DNA of 64,000 nucleotides, taken from contig NZ_VUMR01000002.1 in assembly GCF_009696075.1 (NCBI RefSeq), positions 1 to 64,000 on the forward strand, given 5' to 3'. A program made the translations under genes and the position numbers. How positions within the stretch are numbered: the stretch's first letter is position 1; each line of letters opens with the position of its first letter. The notes under the pieces are model-generated. The model saw nothing but the letters and a program-made list of their open reading frames with translations, did no database searches and was not told the DNA's origin. This DNA is from Holdemanella porci (GTDB taxonomy: Bacteria > Bacillota_I > Bacilli_A > Erysipelotrichales > Erysipelotrichaceae). This document shows positions 42,829-42,997 of the stretch, in pieces.

Positions 42829-42912
42829 AAAAAAGCATTAACAGTAAAATTGTTAATGCTTAAAAGCCCTAATTAAAATACCATTCAGTTTTGATTGGTT
42901 TAATTAGGGCTA
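42829..42912 (-). promoter_or_regulatory. Transcription attenuator of the DAHP synthase gene
   Basis: Minus-strand order: a 13-bp hairpin (5' arm 42911-42899, 3' arm 42877-42865), whose 5' arm includes the leader-peptide stop codon, then a terminator hairpin AGCATTAACA/TGTTAATGCT (42860-42834) followed by six T. The 3' arm of the first hairpin plus its flank (TTAAT...GCTT) can instead pair with AAGCATTAA of the terminator, giving an antiterminator. A ribosome stalled on the Tyr/Phe codons would mask the first hairpin's 5' arm and favour that form. Confidence 0.7.
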
Positions 42913-42951
42913 TCTAAAGTAAAAGTAAAAATATGTAGATTGAATGTTCAT
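42910..42951 (-). CDS. Tyr/Phe leader peptide of the DAHP synthase gene
   Basis: A 13-codon ORF, MNIQSTYFYFYFR, has AGGTGA 6 nt before ATG. Six of the seven residues from 7 to 12 onward are alternating Tyr and Phe (three each), the end-products of the pathway opened by the enzyme. It lies right after a promoter and before paired hairpins, as in pheA/trp-type attenuators. Confidence 0.75.
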   Translation of the reverse strand: MNIQSTYFYFYFR

Positions 42952-42968
42952 GTTAATCACCTAGCTAT

Positions 42969-42997
42969 ACTATAGCTTATCCAATGAAAATATGCAA
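42969..42997 (-). promoter_or_regulatory. Promoter of the DAHP synthase leader
   Basis: Minus-strand -35 TTGCAT (42997-42992), 17-nt spacer, -10 TATAGT (42974-42969). The start would be near 42962, 11 nt before the leader-peptide ATG. Confidence 0.65.

Follow-up and report, generated by a model that had tools for sequence, protein, structure and literature searches.

The aroF gene of Holdemanella porci, which encodes 3-deoxy-7-phosphoheptulonate (DAHP) synthase, is preceded by a short stretch in which a promoter, a small open reading frame (ORF) full of Tyr and Phe codons and two hairpins follow one another. The question raised by this locus is whether these elements make up a ribosome-mediated attenuator, as an earlier note on this DNA had proposed, and by which switch such a device would act. 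The window, that is, the whole stretch of DNA that was analysed (64,000 nucleotides), was examined together with genomes of the family Erysipelotrichaceae. The parts of the leader, their order and spacing, their conservation as a unit before shikimate genes and the structure of the two hairpins, H1 and T2, are directly established. From these and from comparison with relatives, we consider it likely that the leader is a transcription attenuator which adjusts the expression of DAHP synthase to the amount of Tyr and Phe tRNA that is charged.

Architecture of the aroF leader

The whole device lies on the minus strand, in region 42829-42997, between the promoter and aroF (Table 1). The promoter, which had been described as a good one, is present, and the pattern TTGCNN-N17-TANNNT is kept in relatives, but the -35 hexamer of the window copy fits the consensus at only three of six bases, which is why the promoter is absent from the promoter-scan list for the window. 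Transcription is predicted to start at about 42962 and hence to give a very short 5' UTR. The 13-codon ORF with its own Shine-Dalgarno site was found as the earlier note had it. Its ATG is followed by AAC ATT CAA TCT ACA, then by six alternating Tyr and Phe codons (TAT TTT TAC TTT TAC TTT), one Arg codon (AGA) and the stop.

Table 1. Features of the aroF leader, its second copy in the same genome and the T-boxes of the window
Feature	Position	Strand	Basis or remark
-35 hexamer TTGCAT	42997-42992	-	sequence; similar promoter in homologous leaders
-10 hexamer TATAGT	42974-42969	-	17-nt spacer from -35
Shine-Dalgarno AGGTGA of leader ORF	42962-42957	-	identical in sister species G021
Leader ORF MNIQSTYFYFYFR, 13 codons	42951-42910	-	ATG at 42951; stop TAG 42912-42910
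Hairpin H1	42911-42865	-	fold; outer stem starts inside stop codon; apex is the inner hairpin
Inner hairpin of H1	42898-42873	-	followed by T-rich stretch TATTTTAA
Candidate antiterminator	42872-42865 with 42860-42853	-	UUAG-G-GCU with AGC-A-UUAA
Intrinsic terminator T2	42861-42833; T-run 42834-42829	-	11-bp stem, six T; fold and terminator scan
Shine-Dalgarno GAAGG of aroF	42810-42806	-	
aroF, DAHP synthase	42797-41784	-	NF006421, 502.9 bits (cut-off 335)
T-box	35389		RF00230; presumably precedes leuS
T-box	39329		RF00230; presumably precedes tyrS
T-box	44974		RF00230; presumably precedes ileS
Second leader copy (L224)	G000:C90:15102-15249	-	MNTSRHYYFYFK; upstream of aroE-aroK fusion

The hairpin overlapping the ORF stop, the intrinsic terminator before the gene and the assignment of that gene as DAHP synthase were likewise borne out. 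Only three bases separate H1 from T2, and the inner hairpin at the apex of H1, together with the T-rich stretch behind it, could be a pause site for RNA polymerase. Nothing else lies upstream on the minus strand for T2 to terminate; since the gene on the other side of the leader is divergent, T2 would serve the leader transcript only. The 191-nt leader folds with -45.9 kcal/mol, against -27.4 +/- 3.7 kcal/mol for shuffled sequences (z = -5.1).

With regard to known RNA families, none in Rfam 15 reaches its gathering score in the leader, the best scores being 20.6 and 15.1 bits against cut-offs of 55 and 46.9. The T-box covariance model RF00230 identifies three T-boxes in the window at gathering score, confirming the three sites that had been pointed out, and none at aroF. 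The names given in Table 1 to the genes behind these T-boxes are presumed ones, assigned from the ORF sequences.

Distribution in the Erysipelotrichaceae

A covariance model, R1, was built from five aroF leaders of other genera, with the window leader left out, and gives the latter a score of 32.5 bits (E 0.0035-0.005). In whole genomes, R1 also matches leaders of aroE-aroK-aroF and aroB-aroC operons, none of which had been used to build it. It proved too narrow, as the genome of the window was missed in the fast whole-genome scan, and for this reason a second model, R2, was built from 16 leaders. At a threshold of E<=0.01, R2 finds 55 places in 38 of the 273 family genomes and in 19 of the 60 genera. 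The 52 places examined comprise the 16 of the training set and 36 new ones, of which 32 are located directly upstream of aroB, aroE-aroK or aroF, while the remaining four are among the weakest (E >= 0.0046). At least 17 genera carry the leader when those resting only on weak or unexamined places are discounted. Sorted by downstream gene, the leaders number 22 for aroB, 20 for aroE-aroK and 10 for aroF, a tally which includes four further leaders chosen for preceding aro genes. The check for aromatic leader ORFs upstream of aroF in related genomes, which the earlier note had suggested, returned such ORFs with the same hairpins in many Erysipelotrichaceae genera, before aroB and aroE-aroK as well as before aroF. 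The leader is real, and worth naming as an RNA family. A tyrA/pheA-like identity for the genes upstream of operonic aroF was considered and rejected, those examined being aroE-aroK.

Searches of the order and the class found nothing convincing as an R2-type RNA outside the Erysipelotrichaceae. There was one borderline match in the order search, and it recurred among the four extra-family matches of the class search; on inspection these four were ordinary terminators, and no aro gene was found adjacent to them.

The genome of the window contains a second copy of the leader, on contig C90, before aroE-aroK. This copy is devoid of a Shine-Dalgarno site, and only 6 nt lie between the end of its TATCCT -10 box and the ATG, so that its ORF may be translated from a leaderless RNA. 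Just upstream of aroF at L015, L016 and L020, and at the clostridial loci L124, L129 and L135, the ATG of the leader ORF is found about 6-9 nt after the -10 box, and these leader peptides are probably leaderless. Some relatives carry shorter variants with an R-F motif (MNPSKYYRFYN, MKKYISFRFTI, MKYSVYFRFTD), which grade into the Tyr/Phe type. In three genomes (G029, G083 and G101), a T-box stands upstream of an additional aroF paralogue that is more divergent; leader peptide and T-box thus alternate on aroF within one family.

Conserved features of the leaders

Among 48 leaders with a clear stop, 45 have three to six Phe or Tyr codons within the last eight, and in 43 the last aromatic codon is separated from the stop by a single codon. 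Taken together, the last seven codons of these leaders comprise 120 Tyr, 83 Phe and no Trp. With regard to structure, the alignments were fitted to the model structure and their rows are related, which makes the figures flattering, but slid controls drop to 34-58%: in 16 leaders, the outer stem of H1 presents compensatory changes at all 11 pairs, with 96.5% of cells paired, and the T2 helix has 96.8% of cells paired, while in a 59-row alignment the covariation of H1 is seen again, 92.1% of cells are paired over the whole structure and none of 500 shuffles is as good.

A TTG[A/C]NN-N16-18-TANNNT promoter is present upstream of 45 of 50 leaders, where shuffles lead one to expect 3.3. The -35 box is mostly TTGC, with C at position 4, and not TTGA, and the spacing is exactly 17 nt in nearly all cases; the TTGC-type box is perhaps a regulator site or a promoter habit of the lineage.

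Proposed mechanism

The attenuators of E. coli pheA (pheL), pheST and trp (trpL) have aromatic control codons in a short ORF, a hairpin overlapping the end of that ORF and a terminator before the gene. By analogy, the device in the window would work like trpL and pheL, although these E. coli systems govern different genes and have a well-defined classical antiterminator (2:3), whereas no such conserved helix was found in the window-type leaders. The leader holds an ORF with a start signal, kept in kind over genera and predicted to be translated; its control codons specify end products of the pathway, and the downstream genes are aroF, aroB and aroE-aroK; T2 stands as an intrinsic terminator between the ORF and the gene; and the 5' strand of H1 is placed where a ribosome at the control codons would cover it, as masked folding and covariation indicate.

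Transcription would begin just upstream of the leader ORF, and RNA polymerase, having made the ORF and the inner hairpin, would probably pause at the T-rich stretch as a ribosome starts on the leader. When Tyr and Phe are ample, the ribosome would finish and leave, H1 would close, T2 would form and transcription would end upstream of aroF. Under a shortage of either amino acid, the ribosome would be held at the end of the aromatic run, a single codon away from the stop, and its footprint would mask the 5' strand of H1, which could then not close fully; the freed 3' strand of H1 and the U-run would hinder T2, and aroF would be transcribed. Comparison lends good support to the view that the signal is probably stalling at the Tyr/Phe codons. 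The steps that we infer are that the ORF is translated, that the ribosome stalls on it, in which direction the system responds and how an open H1 weakens T2.

When the window leader is folded with a masked ribosome footprint, H1 does not start to open before the A site is at about codon 11 and is open by codons 12 to stop, the opening being progressive with the A site at codons 11-14. With a ribosome stalled at the first aromatic codon, H1 would stay intact, and only the last aromatic codons would switch it. Since masked folding opens H1 only there, H1 would serve to detect a ribosome that has come to rest at the end of the aromatic run. Of the possible readings, this classical scheme is the simplest.

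The antiterminator and alternative readings of the switch

An alternative antiterminator pairing had been called visible, a claim that did not hold as it was worded. The candidate is weak, at about -1.8 kcal/mol against -11.5 kcal/mol for T2; shuffled sequence does equally well, and relatives do not conserve the pairing as a helix. A conserved antiterminator between the 3' strand of H1 and the 5' arm of T2 was looked for by masked folding, by shuffles and by sliding duplex energies and was not supported, and the predicted pairing of these two segments in relatives is not above that of shuffles. The 3' strand of H1 drifts freely with its partner, whereas the 5' arm of T2 is near-invariant and keeps AAGCAT, so the two do not seem to be held to each other. 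The arms of T2 show small pairing excesses with the start or stop region of the ORF in some of the segments compared; as the rows are related and the AUGC of start codons is able to pair with either arm, these excesses were not built on. H1 itself was also considered as a terminator and rejected: UUUU follows H1 in the window copy, but not in the leaders of G006 aroE, G081 aroB and G126 aroF. It would seem that either a loose, unconserved competition suffices, or the switch acts via the pause-like inner hairpin and the T-run.

It is possible, though on balance unlikely, that the leader is functional by a different switch, in which the stalled ribosome acts on polymerase pausing at the H1 hairpin and T-run, or in which H1 and T2 control translation or RNA stability, in either case without an antiterminator helix. 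Such a switch would be consistent with the missing conserved antiterminator and with the TTNTTT that 20 of 48 homologues carry behind the inner hairpin, where 5.8 would be expected, although T-runs are common in AT-rich DNA and the window copy has TATTTT at this place instead of an exact TTNTTT. There is also a parallel in the B. subtilis yxjB leader, which requires stalling on a leader peptide together with a NusG-dependent pause; its pause hairpin is likewise the apex of a larger hairpin and no overlapping antiterminator has been identified, but it senses tylosin and not amino-acid supply (PMC6851288). Conversely, T2 is a canonical intrinsic terminator in a 5' UTR, and control of termination is its simplest use, because nothing else is there to terminate. 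A rather improbable proposal is that of a family-wide Erysipelotrichaceae shikimate leader RNA whose hairpin, built around a site of polymerase pausing, is opened by the stalled ribosome; termination would thereby be relieved with no classical antiterminator helix involved, and aroF, aroB and aroE-aroK would be controlled together.

A further alternative, to which we give limited credence, is that only one amino acid, for example Phe, is truly sensed, and that the other codons merely position the ribosome. In Corynebacterium glutamicum, aroF is preceded by the leader peptide AroR, whose aromatic codons are Phe-Tyr-Phe and which, in the accounts of it cited here, is reported to respond to limitation of Phe and not of Tyr (Neshat 2014, via PMC11802643 and PMC4046766). 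Within the Erysipelotrichaceae, some relatives have Phe only, in the R-F motif (L015, L020), and others Tyr only (YYYY), but the very presence of both kinds in one family speaks against a single sensed amino acid, and the alternation of Tyr and Phe in the window copy suggests that a shortage of either can stall the ribosome.

Chance or signal

A run of aromatic codons is in itself no rarity in this genome, where runs of six TWY codons occur at 49 sites, compared with 60 for a reversed-pattern control; by itself, a six-aromatic-codon run is uninformative in an AT-rich genome. The excess over chance resides in the combination of elements and their conservation, and not in the Tyr/Phe run alone. 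Inspection of the 350 nt upstream of non-operonic family aroF genes, a count independent of the covariance models, found that 7 of 18 have a leader ORF that possesses both a Shine-Dalgarno site and a run of aromatic codons, where shuffles lead one to expect 0.16. In the sister species G021, the ORF is identical over 42 nt, while H1 shows a compensatory change from U-A to A-U. That an AT-rich 5' UTR should have acquired an accidental FY-rich ORF and two unrelated hairpins is, however common six-codon TWY runs are, exceedingly improbable and already disfavoured, as the ORF, its spacing, the covarying H1, T2, the promoter and the class of downstream gene are kept over at least 17 genera. Judged by comparison, the leader is functional and very probably a Tyr/Phe-supply attenuator.

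Relation to known leader peptides

Devices of this kind are already known, and the one described here is not without precedent. As far as the sources on AroR describe it, its likeness to the window leader comprises a DAHP synthase gene, a short leader ORF with Phe and Tyr codons and ribosome-mediated attenuation; AroR belongs to a different phylum and has Phe-Tyr-Phe only. The uORFC-13-1 motif, predicted in 2021 upstream of Acholeplasma aroF, likewise comes from a low-GC Gram-positive lineage and combines a predicted uORF with one or more Phe codons, a promoter, an RBS and an intrinsic terminator; reports of it are confined to Acholeplasma and environmental sequences, and to the position before aroF (PMC8632094). 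Unlike uORFC-13-1 as described, the window-type leader has Tyr/Phe runs and a defined H1, and is also found at aroB and aroE-aroK operons.

In the Firmicutes, the first leader peptides of amino-acid genes to be recognised were those of his genes, in 2010, and those of ilv genes came later, with examples at hisS/hisZ in Bacilli (PMC2965389), in Listeria Rli60 at ilv (PMC5864092) and at ilv in S. aureus (PMC5794164). These share with the window leader an amino-acid-rich ORF and a terminator in lineages better known for T-boxes, but they sense His or branched-chain amino acids and their sequences are unrelated. The novelty claimed for a Tyr/Phe peptide attenuator in this lineage was therefore overstated, given AroR, uORFC-13-1 and the his and ilv leaders. 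Text searches of the open-licence literature found no paper on an Erysipelotrichaceae aro leader. What is new is the lineage, the Tyr/Phe runs whose distance from the stop is fixed, an H1 of defined structure, the occurrence at aroB and aroE-aroK as well, and the lack of an antiterminator conserved among the leaders. The central interpretation of the earlier note, a Tyr/Phe attenuator, has passed the test of ORF conservation, whereas its antiterminator and its novelty do not stand as written.

Aromatic leader ORFs beyond the family and implications

At 15 loci in Clostridium, Geosporobacter, Pelosinus and Epulopiscium, aroF is preceded by a longer ORF with a conserved aromatic core that includes Trp (e.g. 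FYSFFYFxFWGFYFSAGYLFC), followed by terminator-like sequence; conserved residues such as SAG may point to an effect of the nascent peptide. Other short Tyr/Phe-rich ORFs, with no evident sequence relation to the window leader, precede aroF at 13 loci in Clostridia and Fusobacteria. Additionally, in Salinicoccus cyprini, the Rfam family RF02863, 'Enterococcus sRNA 2410', spans an aroF leader with an aromatic ORF (MLLTRQQQHNRFYFSYF; L154:1285-1472), and this 'sRNA' is probably an aroF leader attenuator.

Leader peptides probably control the entry into the synthesis of aromatic amino acids in a large, gut-associated family of Firmicutes whose genomes also employ T-boxes at tRNA synthetase genes, and a searchable RNA without an Rfam model would link three operons into one regulon. 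With at least 45 variants and a stereotyped one-codon gap to the stop, the rules for the position of stalling become directly testable. Furthermore, to judge by the similar aromatic ORFs that precede aroF in Clostridia, Fusobacteria and Salinicoccus, attenuation of this gene by leader peptides may be far commoner in the Firmicutes than has been recorded.
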